Shown here: positions 2,309 to 28,346 of the stretch, one piece after another
Layout: each line of letters starts with the position of its first letter
How positions within the stretch are numbered: position 1 is the stretch's first letter
The notes under the pieces: model-generated
Databases searched by the model: none
Told to the model about the DNA's origin: nothing
The model's input: the letters and a program-made list of their open reading frames with translations, nothing else
Origin: an uncultured Mailhella sp.
Lineage (GTDB): Bacteria > Desulfobacterota > Desulfovibrionia > Desulfovibrionales > Desulfovibrionaceae
Assembly: GCF_944324615.1 (NCBI RefSeq)
Contig: NZ_CALUWY010000004.1
Span: 1-64,000, forward strand
Length of the DNA: 64,000 nucleotides
Reading direction: 5' to 3'
Program-made: the position numbers and the translations under genes

Positions 2309-3625
2309 CTAACGCAAGGCAAAATTAATGACGAAGCACACCGAGACCACCCACATGATGAGGTTCACTTCCCTGGCCCGTCCGGTAAAAAGCCTGAGCA
2401 CCACATAGCTGATGAAGCCCATGCCGAAGCCTGTGGCAATGCTGCTCGTGAGAGGCATGGTGATGATGGTAAGGAAGGCGGGCAGAGCATCGGCCATGTT
2501 GCTGAAGTCGATGTTGCGCGTTTCCTGCACCATGAGCGCACCCACCACAATAAGCGCGGGAGCCGTGGCATAGCTCTGAACAATGCCCACCAGGGGAGCG
2601 AAGATAAGGCTGATGAGGAAAAGAACGCCCACGGTGACGGAGGTCAGGCCGGTGCGGCCACCTTCGGCCATGCCGGTGGAGCTTTCCAGATAGCTCGTCA
2701 CGGCAGGAGTGCCCAGCAGGCCGGAGAGCATGGTGCCGCAGGAATCCACCACCAGCGCCCTGTTCAGCCCTTCGATGCTTCCGTCCGCCTTCATCAGTCC
2801 CGCCTTGCGGGAAAGACCGATGATGGTTCCCATGGTGTCGAAAAGATCCACCATGGTCATGGTGAAGAGCACGGAGAAAAGGCCGTACTTCAGCGCGGCG
2901 ACGATATCGAGCTGCAGGAAGGTGGGCATGAAGCTCGGCACATCCAGGCTCATGACGCCGCCTATGCCGTGAGGCACAGGCCCCACTCCGGTGATCATGC
3001 CCGCCACGGAGGTGATCACGATGCCCAGCAGAATGGCACCGCGCACGTTGAGGATCATGAAAACCGTGGTGATCAGCAGGCCGAAGAGGGAAAGAAGCGT
3101 GGTGGGCCTGCCGAGATGCCCCATGCCCACAAAGGTGGCCTGATCCGGCACCACGACGCCCGCGCTCTTGAGCCCGATGAAGGCAATGAACATGCCTATG
3201 CCCACGGAGGTGGCCAGCTTGAGGTTGAGCGGCACGGCGCGGATGATCTGTTCGCGCAGCCTTGTCACGGAAAGCAGAAAGAACACCACGCCGGAAATGA
3301 ACACGGCGCCCAGGGCCGTCTGCCACGGCAGCCCCATGCCCAGCACCACGGTATAGGCAAAGAAGGCGTTGATGCCCATGCCCGGGGCAAGCGCTATGGG
3401 GAGATTTGCCCAGAGTCCCATGAAAAGCGTGGTCAGGGCGGCCCCCCAGATGGTGGCTGCAACGGCCGCCTCGCGGTCCATGCCCACATCCGCAAGCATG
3501 GAAGGGTTGACAAATATGATATAGGCCATGGACACGAACGTGGTCACGCCCGCCATAAGCTCCACTTTGACGCTGCTGCCGTGCTCTTTCAGTCTGAACA
3601 CCCTGTCGAGAACATTTCCTTCCAC
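2309..3625 (-). CDS. AzgA-type hypoxanthine/guanine/adenine permease (NCS2)
   Basis: This 438-residue inner-membrane protein has about 12-14 hydrophobic segments. The N-terminal signature AGVTTFVSMAYIIFVNPSML is typical of the AzgA/PbuG/GhxP branch of NCS2 purine:proton symporters. GMGINAFFAY in the early membrane region also fits. It begins with GTG behind a GGGGGA stretch. Members import hypoxanthine, guanine or adenine, and the specificity here is not resolved. No purine riboswitch is visible in the 478-base upstream gap, but a large inverted repeat sits there (3801-3843). Confidence 0.85.
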   Translation of the reverse strand: MEGNVLDRVFRLKEHGSSVKVELMAGVTTFVSMAYIIFVNPSMLADVGMDREAAVAATIWGAALTTLFMGLWANLPIALAPGMGINAFFAYTVVLGMGLPWQTALGAVFISGVVFFLLSVTRLREQIIRAVPLNLKLATSVGIGMFIAFIGLKSAGVVVPDQATFVGMGHLGRPTTLLSLFGLLITTVFMILNVRGAILLGIVITSVAGMITGVGPVPHGIGGVMSLDVPSFMPTFLQLDIVAALKYGLFSVLFTMTMVDLFDTMGTIIGLSRKAGLMKADGSIEGLNRALVVDSCGTMLSGLLGTPAVTSYLESSTGMAEGGRTGLTSVTVGVLFLISLIFAPLVGIVQSYATAPALIVVGALMVQETRNIDFSNMADALPAFLTIITMPLTSSIATGFGMGFISYVVLRLFTGRAREVNLIMWVVSVCFVINFALR

Positions 3626-4103: not shown

Positions 4104-5594
4104 GTGAACAGTGCCTTTTCCCCTGATAAGGAATATCTCAAATGGTTTGCCGCGCTGAGCGCCATTCCCCATGAATCCGGGAACGAGCGTGCGCTCGGCG
4201 AGTTTCTCGTTGCCTTTGCAAAGGAACGCGGCCTCTTCGTCATGAAGGACGCCACCGGCAACGTGCACATGAAAAAGCCCGGCACCGCCGGCATGGAACA
4301 GGCCCCGGCCGTCATTCTGCAGGGGCACATGGACATGGTCTGCGTCAAGGATGAAGGGCTGGACTTCGACTTTGCCAGAGATCCCCTGAAACTCATGACC
4401 GACGGAGAGAACCTGTTTGCCCAGGGCACCACCCTCGGCGCAGACAACGGCGTTGCCGTTGCCTATATTCTGGCCGTGTTCGACGCCGACCATATCCCGC
4501 ATCCTCCGCTGGAAGCCGTGATCACCGTGGATGAGGAAGTGGGCATGGGCGGAGCAACGGCCTTCGACGTTTCCCCGCTCAACGCCTCCCTGTTCATCAA
4601 CATGGATTCGGAAGAGGAAGGCATCTTCTGCGTGAGCTGCGCCGGAGGCAGAAGAAGCAGACTGAGCATTCCCGTGGAATTCGAGGATGCCTCGGCGCTT
4701 TCCCCCGCACAGGGCTGGGCACTCCGGCGCATCACCCTCGGCGGACTTGCCGGCGGACATTCCGGGCTGGAAATCATCCGTGAGCGCGGCAACAGCAACA
4801 GACTGCTGGCCAGAATGCTGGACGGACTGAAAAAAACCTTCCCCTGCCGTCTTGTCTCCCTTCAGGGGGGAACGGCGGCAAACGCCATTCCCAAGGAAAG
4901 CTCGGCCGTGCTGTTCATTCAGGCGGAGGATGAGGCTGTTCTGAAGGAAGTGAAGCGCTGGGAAGCCCTGTTCCGCCACGAACTGCGCGGTTCCGACGGC
5001 GCAGGCCTGTTCATCACTCTGGACAGGGCCGACGGCGAAGAACGCGTGTTCTCCCCGGAAAGCGAAAAGCGCGTTCTTTCGGCAGCGCTGCTCGTGCCCG
5101 ACGGCATAGCCTCCATGGACAAGAACATCACCTCCCAGAATCTTGTGGAAAGCTCCAACAACTTCGCCATGATCTGCATGGAAGAAGGTCGCGTCGTCTT
5201 CCAGTGCCAGACCAGAAGTTCCGTTGCCAGCAGAAAGGATGAACTCTGCCGCAGGATCGAAATTCTCGGCGACATGGTGGGGGGCAGCGTCGAACATTCG
5301 GGAGATTACCCCGCATGGGAATACAACCCCGATTCCCGTCTTCAGAGCATCTTCACAACGTCCTATGAAACGCTGTTCGGAAAGAAGGCGCGCGTGGAAG
5401 GCATTCATGCCGGCCTGGAATGCGGACTCTTTGCCGACAAGTTCCGGAAGCTCGGCCGCAGGGTGGACTTCATTTCCTTCGGGCCGACGGTGACCGGAGC
5501 GCATTCCACCAGGGAGAGGCTCCACCTCGCCTCTGCGGAAAACGCCTGGAAGCTCCTTCTGGACGTGCTGCAGCGCATAGGTGAGACAAAATAA
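4104..5594 (+). CDS. pepD: Aminoacyl-histidine dipeptidase (M20 family)
   Basis: This 496-residue cytosolic metallodipeptidase is close to the usual length of about 485. Its di-zinc motifs are GHMDMVCVKD, TLGADNGVAVA and DEEVGMGGA, followed by DSEEEGIFCVSCAGG. These are the PepD/carnosinase signature segments. It hydrolyses Xaa-His and other dipeptides. The start is the GTG at 4104, eight bases after CAGGAG; the longer frame from 4017 has no ribosome site. A strong terminator follows directly (5603-5632), so it appears monocistronic. Confidence 0.9.
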   Translation: MNSAFSPDKEYLKWFAALSAIPHESGNERALGEFLVAFAKERGLFVMKDATGNVHMKKPGTAGMEQAPAVILQGHMDMVCVKDEGLDFDFARDPLKLMTDGENLFAQGTTLGADNGVAVAYILAVFDADHIPHPPLEAVITVDEEVGMGGATAFDVSPLNASLFINMDSEEEGIFCVSCAGGRRSRLSIPVEFEDASALSPAQGWALRRITLGGLAGGHSGLEIIRERGNSNRLLARMLDGLKKTFPCRLVSLQGGTAANAIPKESSAVLFIQAEDEAVLKEVKRWEALFRHELRGSDGAGLFITLDRADGEERVFSPESEKRVLSAALLVPDGIASMDKNITSQNLVESSNNFAMICMEEGRVVFQCQTRSSVASRKDELCRRIEILGDMVGGSVEHSGDYPAWEYNPDSRLQSIFTTSYETLFGKKARVEGIHAGLECGLFADKFRKLGRRVDFISFGPTVTGAHSTRERLHLASAENAWKLLLDVLQRIGETK

Positions 5595-22794: not shown

Positions 22795-22944
22795 TTTTTT
22801 ATTTAAAAACTTTTTCTTGTCAACAGGCATGGTTATGCTGTCATCATGGGTCGGTCAGGAAACGCATGTCACGGTCAGGAAGGCGGCCCGGCATGTGGAA
22901 GGAGCCGTGTATGCCGGCGCTGCAGCGCCGCGGAAGGGGGAACG

Positions 22945-23451
22945 ATGAAGGAACTTGTTTTCGTCAACGGTACCATGGGGGTGGGGAAAAGCACCGTATG
23001 TGCGGAGCTTCTTTCCCTGCTTGCTCCGGCCGTGTTTCTCGACGGCGACTGGTGCTGGAACATGTCGCCTTTTGTGGTGAATGAGGAAACGCGCGCCATG
23101 GTGCTGGACAATGCCGCCCATGTTCTGAACAGTTTCCTGCACTGTTCCGTGTACCGTTTTGTGCTTTTCTGCTGGGTGATGCACTCCCGCGATATTGTGG
23201 ATGAGGTGCTGGGCAGGCTCGACCTTGCCGGGGTGCGCTTCACCCTTGTCACGCTGACCTGTTCGAGGCAGGCCCTTGAGGCCCGCCTTCAGTCCGACAT
23301 CGCCCGGAAGAAACGAAGCCCGGGAGTGCTTTCCCGGAGTCTGGAGCGCCTGCCCCTGTATGCGGACATGGGAGGCGTCGTGGTGGATACGAGCGCCGTC
23401 ACGGCAGAGGAGGCCGCCCGGCGCATCGCACGGATGTTCATAAAAGTGTGA
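22945..23451 (+). CDS. Small P-loop kinase-like protein
   Basis: This 168-residue cytosolic protein has a Walker A motif GTMGVGKST at 9-17. It resembles AAA_33/shikimate-kinase-like nucleotide-binding proteins with a late Arg-containing lid (DIARKKRSPG). Such proteins phosphorylate small molecules or RNA ends, and no substrate can be named. ATG at 22945 follows GGAAGGGGG. It is divergent from the peroxiredoxin gene, so the Fur-like box lies upstream of both. Its stop codon is inside the hairpin at 23449-23477. Confidence 0.7.
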   Translation: MKELVFVNGTMGVGKSTVCAELLSLLAPAVFLDGDWCWNMSPFVVNEETRAMVLDNAAHVLNSFLHCSVYRFVLFCWVMHSRDIVDEVLGRLDLAGVRFTLVTLTCSRQALEARLQSDIARKKRSPGVLSRSLERLPLYADMGGVVVDTSAVTAEEAARRIARMFIKV

Positions 23452-24534: not shown

Positions 24535-26355
24535 ATGGATAATAGGGGTGAGGACAGAAAGGATTTCGCCAGGCGTCCCTTCAGAAAAAACGAGGGTGAA
24601 CGCGGCGAGAACCGCCGCAGAGAATATGCGGACGGCGGACGTCCGCGCCGTTTTGAGCGCGGAGACGACGAGAAGCGGGAAGGCCGCAGGGAATTTCGGA
24701 ACGATCGTCCGCGCACGGACCGCGCGGCTTCGCGCGGGCGCGATCTCGGCGCGCTCATGGATCTGGACAACGACATTCTGCATCTTGTGGTGCGCCGCGC
24801 CCAGATGCTTGCCCGCCTGCGCAGCGGCGGCCGCCTCGCTCCCGAAACGGAAAAGACTCTGCGTACCGCATGGGAAAGCAAGGCCGCGCGTCTTGCCCGC
24901 GACAACCGTCTTTCCCGCGATCTGTTCGTGCTTCTGCAGGCCATCGAACCCATGACGCGCATGGAGGAAGAGCAGGGCTACTACAATCTTTCTCCCAACG
25001 GCGAAGCCGTGGACATCCACATCCCTGCTCCTTCCGATACCGTGGCCGCCCGCTGCTGGCTGGCCGTGGCCGCCGCCTCCGGTCAGGAAACCACCCTTTC
25101 CCGCGTGCCCCTCACCGACGCCGTGGTGAGCTCCGTCAAGGTGCTCAATCAGCTGGGCGGTCTGCTGCGCTGGGAGGAAAACGGCGAGGTGCAGAGCCGT
25201 GCGGGCAAGGGACTTGTCCGCAACCTGGACAAGGTCATCCATGTGGGCGACGACGCCTTCAACCTCTGGCTCGTCATCGCGCTCTGCGTGGGCATGCCCG
25301 CAAGGCTCAAGCTTACGGGCGACAGCTCCCTGCGCTTCATCGACATTGCGCCCCTGCGTCATTTCCTGCCGCAGCTCGGCGTGCGCCTGACCAACGTCAT
25401 TCCTTCGCAGGACGGCCTGCCCGTGCGCATGGAATGCTCCGGCCTCATGCCCCGCGAAGTCCGCATTGCGGACGATCTGCCCGAAGATTTCGTGGCCGCG
25501 CTGGTGCTTGCCGCTCCCTTCTGGGAAGGGGACTGCAGACTGGTGCTGCCCGAGAAGGAACCCCGTCTTCTGCCCCTCGTGCTGGATGTGCTTTCCGGCT
25601 GCGGCGTGAAGTTCACCCGCAACGGGCGTGAACTCACCGTGGAACGCGGCGCAGTTTCCGTGCCCGCGCAGCCCGTGGTGCCCATGGACGCCGCCGTGGC
25701 GGCCACCATTCTCATGCTGCCCGGCTTCAACGGCGGCACGGCGGAGCTGGAAGGCGTGTGGGGCGGCGGTACCGCCTGCTCTCTGGTGGAAAAGATTCTG
25801 CGCGGCGCCGGACTCAACGTGAAGTACGGCGCGCAGAAGGTGACGTGCACCGGCAAGGAGCGCGAAACCTCCGCTCCCGCTCCCGAAGTCATGGCCGACG
25901 TGCTTGCCCTCTGCCCCTCTCTTCTGCCTCTGTGCACGGTGATCATGGCCGCTGCGGTGCATGAGGGTGCGAGTGTTTCCCTGCCCGCGCTTTCGGAAGA
26001 AGACAGGCATCTTGTCACGGCCTTCCTTGCCCGCTGCGGCGTGGTGGAAAAGGACGGCGTCCTTGCGGCCGTGGAAGACACCGTTCCCGGCTCCTGGGTG
26101 GCTCCTTCCGCGCACTGGGCCATGGCCTATGCCCTCGGCGCTTTTCTGAAGCCCAACCTGCACCTTTCCAACCCCGGTGTGATGACGAGCCTCTTCCCCC
26201 TGTTCTGGAACCTGTACAACACCCTTCCCCGCCCCGAACTCAAGCGCAAATCCGATCAGGAGGTAGAAGATGCCAAGCCCGCAAGAAGGAGAGTCATCGC
26301 CCAGGGAGTCTATGGAGAGCTTCCTCCTGAAGCCTCTGCCGGAGACGATTTCTGA
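24535..26355 (+). CDS. Arg-rich, chorismate-mutase-like/EPSP-synthase-like fusion protein
   Basis: This 606-residue protein has three parts. Residues 1-70 are Arg/Glu/Asp/Gly-rich and probably disordered. Residues 72-140 form an AroQ-like helical segment (LDNDILHLVVRRAQMLARL). Residues 155-565 resemble EPSP synthase, with LTGDSSLRFIDIAPL echoing the family's LTGD-RLR-RP. Key EPSPS motifs are altered: the GSKS site reads APSDTVAAR (165-173) and the NAGTAMR site reads GDDAFNLW (238-245). It may be a catalytically dead homolog or a very divergent AroA. ATG follows CAGG. A small gene overlaps its 3' end. If no other aroA exists in the genome, the divergent-enzyme reading gains weight. Confidence 0.7.
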   Translation: MDNRGEDRKDFARRPFRKNEGERGENRRREYADGGRPRRFERGDDEKREGRREFRNDRPRTDRAASRGRDLGALMDLDNDILHLVVRRAQMLARLRSGGRLAPETEKTLRTAWESKAARLARDNRLSRDLFVLLQAIEPMTRMEEEQGYYNLSPNGEAVDIHIPAPSDTVAARCWLAVAAASGQETTLSRVPLTDAVVSSVKVLNQLGGLLRWEENGEVQSRAGKGLVRNLDKVIHVGDDAFNLWLVIALCVGMPARLKLTGDSSLRFIDIAPLRHFLPQLGVRLTNVIPSQDGLPVRMECSGLMPREVRIADDLPEDFVAALVLAAPFWEGDCRLVLPEKEPRLLPLVLDVLSGCGVKFTRNGRELTVERGAVSVPAQPVVPMDAAVAATILMLPGFNGGTAELEGVWGGGTACSLVEKILRGAGLNVKYGAQKVTCTGKERETSAPAPEVMADVLALCPSLLPLCTVIMAAAVHEGASVSLPALSEEDRHLVTAFLARCGVVEKDGVLAAVEDTVPGSWVAPSAHWAMAYALGAFLKPNLHLSNPGVMTSLFPLFWNLYNTLPRPELKRKSDQEVEDAKPARRRVIAQGVYGELPPEASAGDDF

Positions 26356-26566
26356 GCTTGAGGCCCAGATGGACCTCATCTCGTCGGAACAGAAGCGCTG
26401 CTTTGAGGCGATACGGCGGCTCATGGACGCCGAAGACGTGGAAAAGGGCATTGTGTTTCCGCAGGAGATTCATGAGCTGCATCAGCGCAAGAACATGCTG
26501 GAAACCCACATGCAGTACCGCCGTGTGCGCATCAACCGCCTGAAGATGTGGAAGGGGATAAAGTAG
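26270..26566 (+). CDS. Small coiled-coil conserved-hypothetical protein
   Basis: This 98-residue charged protein is largely helical by composition (ETISELEAQMDLISSEQKR, then ELHQRKNMLETHMQYRRVRI). It is likely a coiled coil, with no recognised domain. It starts inside the upstream gene and overlaps it by 86 bases in another frame. A strong AGGAGGT site sits 5-6 bases before its ATG, which argues that it is real and translationally coupled. A terminator follows. Function unknown; a structural or adaptor role with the upstream protein is only a guess. Confidence 0.7.
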   Translation: MPSPQEGESSPRESMESFLLKPLPETISELEAQMDLISSEQKRCFEAIRRLMDAEDVEKGIVFPQEIHELHQRKNMLETHMQYRRVRINRLKMWKGIK

Positions 26567-26670: not shown

Positions 26671-27369
26671 ATGAGCGAACAAACAAACTGCCGCCAGTGC
26701 GGAACCTGCTGCCGCAAGGGCGGCCCCGCACTGCACAAGGAAGACGCCCCCCTTCTGGAGGAGGGCGTGCTTCAGCTCCAGGATCTGTGCACGTTCCGCG
26801 CAGGCGAGCTCGTGCGCGACACCTCCAACGACCATGTGGTTCCCCTTCCTGAAGAAATCGTGAAGATCGCCGCGCCCTTCGGTTCCCGTCCCGACGACTG
26901 GACCTGCCGTTTTCTCATGGAGGACAACCGCTGTTTCATCCACGGCAGGCACCCTGCCGAATGCCGGGCGCTTTTCTGCGAAGATCCGGCGGCGCTTCTT
27001 TCCATGCAGGGAGAAGACAGGCTGGACCGCGCGGCCATTCTTGAGCTGCTTCATGCCCCTCAGTGGCTGGCCGATTCCGTGAAGGCGCATGAGGAACGCT
27101 GCAACTATGCCGACCTCACGGATATCGCCTCCCGCCTGGAAACGGAGGAAGAGGCGCGCCGCGCTCTTGTGCAGGTGGTGGAATACGACAGGGCCTTCCG
27201 GGAACTTATGATGGAAAAGGGCAACGTGCGCAGGGAAATGCTGGACTTTCTGTTCGGCCGTCCGCTCATGCACACGGTCATCATGTTCGGCATCGACGCC
27301 AGGCACAACGCCGACGGCGGCATTACCCTTGTGCAGACCACAAAAGCCACACTGAAGAGGCAAGCATGA
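26671..27369 (+). CDS. YkgJ-type cysteine-cluster protein (metal or Fe-S binding)
   Basis: This 232-residue protein has the CxxCGxCC motif at the start (NCRQCGTCCRKGG) and later cysteines in WTCRFL, RCFIHG and ECRALFC. This is the arrangement of the UPF0153/YkgJ family, thought to bind iron or zinc. ATG at 26671 follows TGAGGA. Its stop overlaps the start of hldD by 4 bases (ATGA), so the two are translationally coupled. Function within heptose metabolism is not evident. Confidence 0.8.
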   Translation: MSEQTNCRQCGTCCRKGGPALHKEDAPLLEEGVLQLQDLCTFRAGELVRDTSNDHVVPLPEEIVKIAAPFGSRPDDWTCRFLMEDNRCFIHGRHPAECRALFCEDPAALLSMQGEDRLDRAAILELLHAPQWLADSVKAHEERCNYADLTDIASRLETEEEARRALVQVVEYDRAFRELMMEKGNVRREMLDFLFGRPLMHTVIMFGIDARHNADGGITLVQTTKATLKRQA

Positions 27370-28346
27370 TCATCGTTACCGGCGGCGCCGGCCTCATCGG
27401 CGCGAACATGATATGGGAACTGAACAGGCAGGGCGAGGACGACATCCTTGTGGTGGACAATCTCGCCTCCACGGAAAAGTGGAAGAACCTCTCCCACCTG
27501 CGCTACAGCAACTACATGCACCGCGACAAATTCCTTGAGGAACTTCGTTCCGGCAAGAAGCTGGAAGGCGTGGACTGCGTGATCCACATGGGGGCCTGCT
27601 CCTCCACCACGGAACGCAACGCCGATTTTCTCATGGAGAACAACTTCCACTACACGGTGGAACTGTGCCTTGCCTCCCTGGAGGCCGGTGCGCGCTTCAT
27701 CACCGCAAGCAGCGCCGCCACCTACGGCGACGGGGAACTCGGCTTTTCCGATGCTCTGGACATCATGCCGAAGCTCCGCCCGCTGAACATGTACGGCTAC
27801 TCCAAGAAGCTGTTCGATTTGTGGTGCCTGCGTCACAAGCTTCTCGGCGAAGTGGTGAACCTCAAGTTCTTCAACGTGTACGGGCCGGATGAATACCACA
27901 AGGGCAGCATGATGAGCATGGTCTGCCGTGCCGTGCCGCAGGTGAAGGAAACCGGGAAGATCCGCCTCTTCAAGTCCGACAATCCCCAGTACGGCGACGG
28001 CGAATCCGTGCGCGACTTCGTGTACTCCAAGGACTGCGCGGCCCTCATGCGCTGGTTCATGGAAACGCCTTCCTGCAACGGCATCTTCAACGTGGGCACG
28101 GGCCATGCCCGCAGCTGGAACGACCTTGCGCGCGCCGTGTTCTCCTCCATGGACAGGGAAGAGAATATCGAATACTTCGACATGCCCGAACACCTCAAGG
28201 GCAAGTACCAGTATTTCACCGAGGCCGACATGTCCTGGCTTGAACGCGAGGGCTGCCCCGTGAAGTTCCATTCTCTGGAAGAAGGTGTGGACGACTACGT
28301 CCGCAACTATCTCATGCAGGATGATCCCTATCTCTGCACCCTGTAG
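27366..28346 (+). CDS. hldD: ADP-L-glycero-D-manno-heptose 6-epimerase
   Basis: This 326-residue NAD(P)-dependent epimerase of the extended SDR type makes ADP-L-glycero-D-manno-heptose for the lipopolysaccharide inner core. It shows the TGGAGLIGANM nucleotide motif, SSAATYGDG with the active-site Ser, and MYGYSKKLFD with the Tyr-Lys pair. FNVYGPDEYHKGSMMS is typical of HldD. It starts within the stop of the YkgJ-like gene and ends at a strong terminator. It implies a Gram-negative envelope with heptose-containing LPS. Confidence 0.93.
   Translation: MIIVTGGAGLIGANMIWELNRQGEDDILVVDNLASTEKWKNLSHLRYSNYMHRDKFLEELRSGKKLEGVDCVIHMGACSSTTERNADFLMENNFHYTVELCLASLEAGARFITASSAATYGDGELGFSDALDIMPKLRPLNMYGYSKKLFDLWCLRHKLLGEVVNLKFFNVYGPDEYHKGSMMSMVCRAVPQVKETGKIRLFKSDNPQYGDGESVRDFVYSKDCAALMRWFMETPSCNGIFNVGTGHARSWNDLARAVFSSMDREENIEYFDMPEHLKGKYQYFTEADMSWLEREGCPVKFHSLEEGVDDYVRNYLMQDDPYLCTL

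Follow-up and report, generated by a model that had tools for sequence, protein, structure and literature searches.

An open reading frame in the genome of an uncultured Mailhella species (Desulfovibrionaceae; NCBI RefSeq assembly GCF_944324615.1) joins two folds of the shikimate pathway in a single protein, and it raises the question of whether that protein still serves the pathway or has been turned to another use. The window analysed here is the whole stretch of 64,000 nucleotides at the start of contig NZ_CALUWY010000004.1. The initial annotation had proposed a fusion of shikimate-pathway folds behind an Arg-rich head, with both the GSKS-type and the NAGTAMR-type sites lost, and had offered two readings of it: a pseudoenzyme with an RNA-related or regulatory function, or the sole, divergent AroA of its lineage.

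Domain architecture

The reading frame and its domain layout were as first described, and the coordinates of the coding sequence were exact. The features of the locus are as follows.

24535–26355, + strand: coding sequence of the CM-EPSPS-like protein, 606 amino acids plus stop, with the genus-conserved start MDNRGED
24535–24732, + strand: Arg-rich low-complexity head, residues 1–66, from composition, comparison of N-termini and an AlphaFold (AF2) pLDDT of 25–30
24733–24978, + strand: chorismate-mutase (AroQ)-like helical domain, residues 67–148, from CM_2 matches in orthologues and alignment with PheA chorismate mutase (CM) domains
25012–26232, + strand: EPSP-synthase-like domain without active-site residues, residues 160–566, from Pfam and TIGRFAM matches and the family profile
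26258–26263, + strand: AGGAGG, a Shine-Dalgarno-like sequence for the downstream gene, within the CM-EPSPS-like coding sequence
26270–26566, + strand: partner gene encoding a 98-aa coiled-coil-like protein, overlapping the CM-EPSPS-like coding sequence by 86 bases
26275–26295, + strand: basic motif KPARRRV, residues 581–587, with varied Arg codons (RRRI[KR] near the C-terminus in the family)

The head contains 20 Arg among its 66 residues, with 23 positive and 17 negative charges. Comparison of N-termini indicated that it is kept within the window's genus, that some other Desulfovibrionaceae carry charged heads of different sequence, and that most other families have only a short head or none. 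An AlphaFold model built from five close sequences was poor (pLDDT 44), and the fold assignment therefore rests on sequence profiles; three helices are predicted in the chorismate-mutase-like region of this low-confidence model.

The EPSPS-like part of the protein matches PF00275 with 58.4 bits over residues 166–559 (Pfam cut-off 22.8), and 16 of the 24 aligned orthologues are matched by the Pfam EPSP_synthase model. A profile of the 24 orthologues aligns to residues 5–417 of E. coli EPSPS (E 1e-22), so that this part of the protein is complete. The aroA equivalog model TIGR01356 gives 60.5 bits and does not reach its cut-off of 287.25. For the N-terminal domain, no Pfam chorismate mutase match was obtained with the window protein by itself; since CM_2 (PF01817) is matched by 18/24 aligned orthologues, with a best E-value of 3.3e-11, the chorismate-mutase-like domain is real.

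Fusions that join a shikimate-branch enzyme ahead of an EPSPS domain are already represented by TyrA-AroA (PRK14806/NF011381). In the present protein, the N-terminal partner is instead chorismate-mutase-like rather than a prephenate dehydrogenase and the active-site residues have been lost; the TyrA-AroA fusion model scores only 22 bits against it (cut-off 902).

Loss of both active sites

The positions of the EPSPS active site were transferred from the alignment with E. coli EPSPS to 46 family members. K22, S23, R27, G96, R100, R124, S169–Q171, D313, K340, E341, R344, H385, R386 and K411 are all replaced across the family, mostly by varied residues. The only catalytic or ligand position tested that is still conserved is D242, which is retained in 40 of the 46 members. 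The loss noted earlier for the GSKS-type and NAGTAMR-type sites thus reaches nearly every active-site position and is family-wide. Compared with EPSP synthase AroA (PF00275/TIGR01356), the protein shares a two-lobe fold that is complete by profile and the D242 equivalent, but it has lost the other tested catalytic and ligand residues and carries in addition a chorismate-mutase-like domain, a head and a basic tail.

The chorismate-mutase-like domain was aligned with the PheA CM domains of the same order. Two of the six residues in the set R11, R28, K39, R51, E52 and Q88 have invariant counterparts in the family, R88 corresponding to R28 and E106 to E52. The equivalents of R11, R51 and Q88 have been lost in the family, and that of K39 is missing from the window's genus. 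The domain shares the three-helix N-terminal region of AroQ-type chorismate mutases, but it is attached to an EPSPS-like domain instead of PDT, PDH or DAHPS. With active sites eroded in both domains, the earlier suggestion of a pseudoenzyme appears likely to be right.

RtcA, the RNA 3′-phosphate cyclase, and Rcl1 have an EPSPS-related fold, and Rcl1 is a catalytically dead member that works on RNA. Rcl1 provides a precedent for a dead EPSPS-related protein, whereas the CM-EPSPS-like sequence lies clearly on the AroA side: no RTC family was found among the Pfam matches at E ≤ 1 for the window protein and its orthologues.

Canonical shikimate-pathway genes in the same genome

Three genes of the EPSPS superfamily were found in the genome, namely a canonical aroA, a murA and the CM-EPSPS-like gene. 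The canonical aroA is located on contig C28, scores 382 bits with TIGR01356, above the cut-off, and immediately follows a CM-prephenate dehydratase gene (pheA) that has the usual CM residues. The murA gene was identified from its sequence and from its place in the murA clade of the tree. An above-cut-off aroA was likewise found in 54 of 59 relatives, the other five having only fragments or weaker MurA-like matches. The search for canonical aroA and pheA that the initial annotation had called for thus found both, side by side, and its reading of the CM-EPSPS-like protein as the sole AroA of the lineage is ruled out. Although homology to EPSPS above the Pfam cut-off could be taken to favour a divergent working AroA, sole or back-up, the presence of the canonical gene and the replacement of K22, R124, D313, E341, H385 and K411 make such an enzyme barely credible. 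Because the active-site residues have been lost, complementation of an aroA mutant by this protein is judged from sequence to be very unlikely.

Distribution, phylogeny and selection

Orthologues occur in 55 of the 59 related genomes and in six families of the Desulfovibrionales; the window's genus is represented mostly by incomplete assemblies. A profile was run against 395 genomes of the phylum, which within the Desulfovibrionales covered the window's own family only. Family members scored 353 bits or more, and all came from that family. Outside it, the best match reached 162 bits and only AroA/MurA-type matches were found; the stronger of these cover only profile positions ~80 to 545 and are mostly frames of ~430 aa, as expected for AroA and MurA. 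No orthologue was therefore detected elsewhere in the phylum among the 395 genomes searched.

When canonical AroA and MurA are included in the tree, the CM-EPSPS-like family groups as one clade (100/100), its stem measures 2.15 changes per column, and its terminal branches have roughly double the length of canonical AroA branches. The family as defined here is a single clade with common invariants and an overlapping small gene downstream, and all three were found for the window protein. The invariants are R88, E106, W113, P154, P166, R284, P296, E300, L393, G407, P465, P555 and W558. Values of dN/dS estimated by a counting method from nine relatives, which are approximate with some dS near saturation, were 0.04–0.36 in the head, chorismate-mutase-like and EPSPS-like regions outside the overlap, and 0.09–0.36 in the head itself.

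Five complete or near-complete genomes (G023, G027, G271, G335 and G449) are without the CM-EPSPS-like gene, so that some lineages can do without it; in G027, sat and the small gene flank a site from which it is cleanly absent. Its absence from a few lineages, together with evolution faster than that of AroA, might suggest a decaying pseudogene or a spurious reading frame. There are, however, no stop codons in the window's frame or in the copies of near relatives, the gene is conserved across six families, and dN/dS stays well under 1 in all main regions, which refutes this explanation and leaves it almost no probability. The family has a single origin, is under purifying selection and cannot be regarded as a recent fusion or as a decaying pseudogene.

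An alternative is an enzyme with a new activity, in which the EPSPS-like cleft and the CM-like pocket would catalyse a new reaction through R88, E106, K202, N205, R284, R298 and E300. Many polar residues are invariant over deep divergence, two CM ligand residues have been retained, and D242 is still present in most members. Against this, the active-site columns are variable with no replacement constellation, the family's branches have the doubled length described above, and Pro, Gly and Trp are frequent among the invariants, as would be expected for maintenance of a fold. We consider a neofunctionalised enzyme, including one that uses residues outside the aligned old site, unlikely.

The overlapping small gene and the C-terminal motif

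The 98-aa product of the overlapping gene matches no Pfam family. It has a conserved coiled-coil-like pattern, and in most of the order the CM-EPSPS-like gene overlaps a gene of this kind for a product of ~85–100 aa. The small gene was found in 50/59 relatives, in 48 of them together with the CM-EPSPS-like gene; seven genomes have the CM-EPSPS-like gene without it, and two (G023 and G027) have the small gene alone. Since each occurs without the other, the two proteins are not obligate partners, and the small protein is likely a partner of a non-obligate kind. In the two genomes without the CM-EPSPS-like gene, the small gene persists ahead of aconitase (L083 of G027, 4365–4730; L117 of G023, 2870–3150), which indicates that it acts by itself or together with another partner. 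An apparent fusion of the two genes in G023 was rejected, as the 561-aa frame is a stop-to-stop artefact over a GDP-mannose dehydratase-like gene.

A basic motif resembling RRRI[KR] is found at or near the end of most family members. Its Arg codons vary, and orthologues that no overlapping gene follows still have it; the motif is therefore selected as protein, and the same observations rule out that it is a hidden Shine-Dalgarno sequence of the next gene. This motif and the genus-level Arg-rich head are the only hints of the RNA-related or regulatory role raised at the outset.

Gene neighbourhood and sulfate activation

Outside the window's genus, the usual gene order is qmo-aprA-aprB (divergent), sat, the CM-EPSPS-like gene, the small gene, aconitase and a PPIase; the orientation of sat relative to the CM-EPSPS-like gene differs among lineages. 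Neighbours were named from sequence similarity and from reading of the proteins, and aconitase, ATP sulfurylase and AprA were also confirmed by family searches. The conserved neighbourhood with sat/aprBA/qmo, aconitase and a SurA/PpiD-like PPIase was observed at loci L041, L046–L050, L052–L056, L058, L059, L066, L068–L071, L073, L074, L076 and L077.

In the window's genus (the window's own genome, G000, and 18 others), ATP sulfurylase was found in 0/19 genomes and no aprA was above the cut-off, pointing to a loss of sulfate activation in the Mailhella-like lineage. The CM-EPSPS-like gene is nonetheless kept in 18 of these sat-lacking genomes, and most genomes of the genus have an aconitase elsewhere. 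Over all 59 genomes, the CM-EPSPS-like gene is present in 23/24 that lack sat and in 32/35 that have it, and the two genes do not co-vary (Fisher p 0.64, with relatedness ignored). A functional link to sulfate activation is weakened by its retention in the genomes without sat. As lineages without sat and aprA keep the gene, its role is independent of sulfate activation, and the gene probably stands next to sat because of its ancestral placement and not out of functional necessity.

The neighbourhood also bears on whether the protein is a regulatory subunit of aromatic biosynthesis, that is, a dead mimic of AroA and PheA that would bind AroA, PheA or chorismate/prephenate and so tune flux. Its domains originate from that pathway, and CM domains are regulatory modules in some DAHP synthases. 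The conserved neighbours are nevertheless sat, apr, qmo, aconitase and PPIase rather than aromatic-pathway genes, and the substrate-binding residues have been lost; a role of this kind seems quite improbable.

A proposed non-catalytic role

We consider it reasonably probable that the protein is an ancient, catalytically dead CM-EPSPS protein, a paralogue of AroA repurposed for putative binding or scaffolding. An ancient AroA paralogue carrying an N-terminal AroQ-type chorismate-mutase-like domain would have lost both catalytic centres ahead of the radiation of the Desulfovibrionales. Its fold would then have been retained for a non-catalytic task instead of making EPSP or prephenate. Duplication of an adjacent pheA-aroA pair is a plausible, conjectural origin for the arrangement. 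The EPSPS-like body and the helical domain may form a binding platform, with the Arg-rich C-terminal motif, and in the window's genus also the head, contacting a polyanion or an acidic partner. The overlapping small protein could be a partner produced in concert with it.

The gene's ancestral position beside sat-aprBA-qmo and ahead of aconitase and PPIase suggests that it serves cytoplasmic energy metabolism in a housekeeping or assembly capacity. More speculatively, and with considerable doubt on our part, this order-specific, doubly dead shikimate-fold protein could help, with its putative coiled-coil partner, to assemble or regulate the core energy metabolism of the Desulfovibrionales (the sat/apr/qmo neighbourhood, aconitase and PPIase), or bind RNA through its basic tail, which would be a new function for a bacterial EPSPS-fold pseudoenzyme.

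If the binding reading is true, two folds of one pathway have lost catalysis together and been kept for another role, in a deep and lineage-defining case beside the central genes of sulfate reduction. We found no description of the protein in the open-access literature, an absence that is not proof of novelty. D. vulgaris locus tags led to none either, and DVU1063 encodes a flagellar regulator. Annotation by best Pfam match would, throughout the Desulfovibrionales, turn the gene into an EPSP synthase or a chorismate mutase and so give each genome a false second AroA.

Flanking genes in the window

A plasmid search gave no match. Downstream of the gene pair, positions 26671–28346 of the window encode a CxxCxxCC (PF03692) protein and a nucleotide-sugar epimerase (HldD-like). 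Upstream, positions 22846–23451 encode a small AAA_18-type P-loop kinase-like protein with weak similarity to shikimate kinase and to chloramphenicol phosphotransferase.
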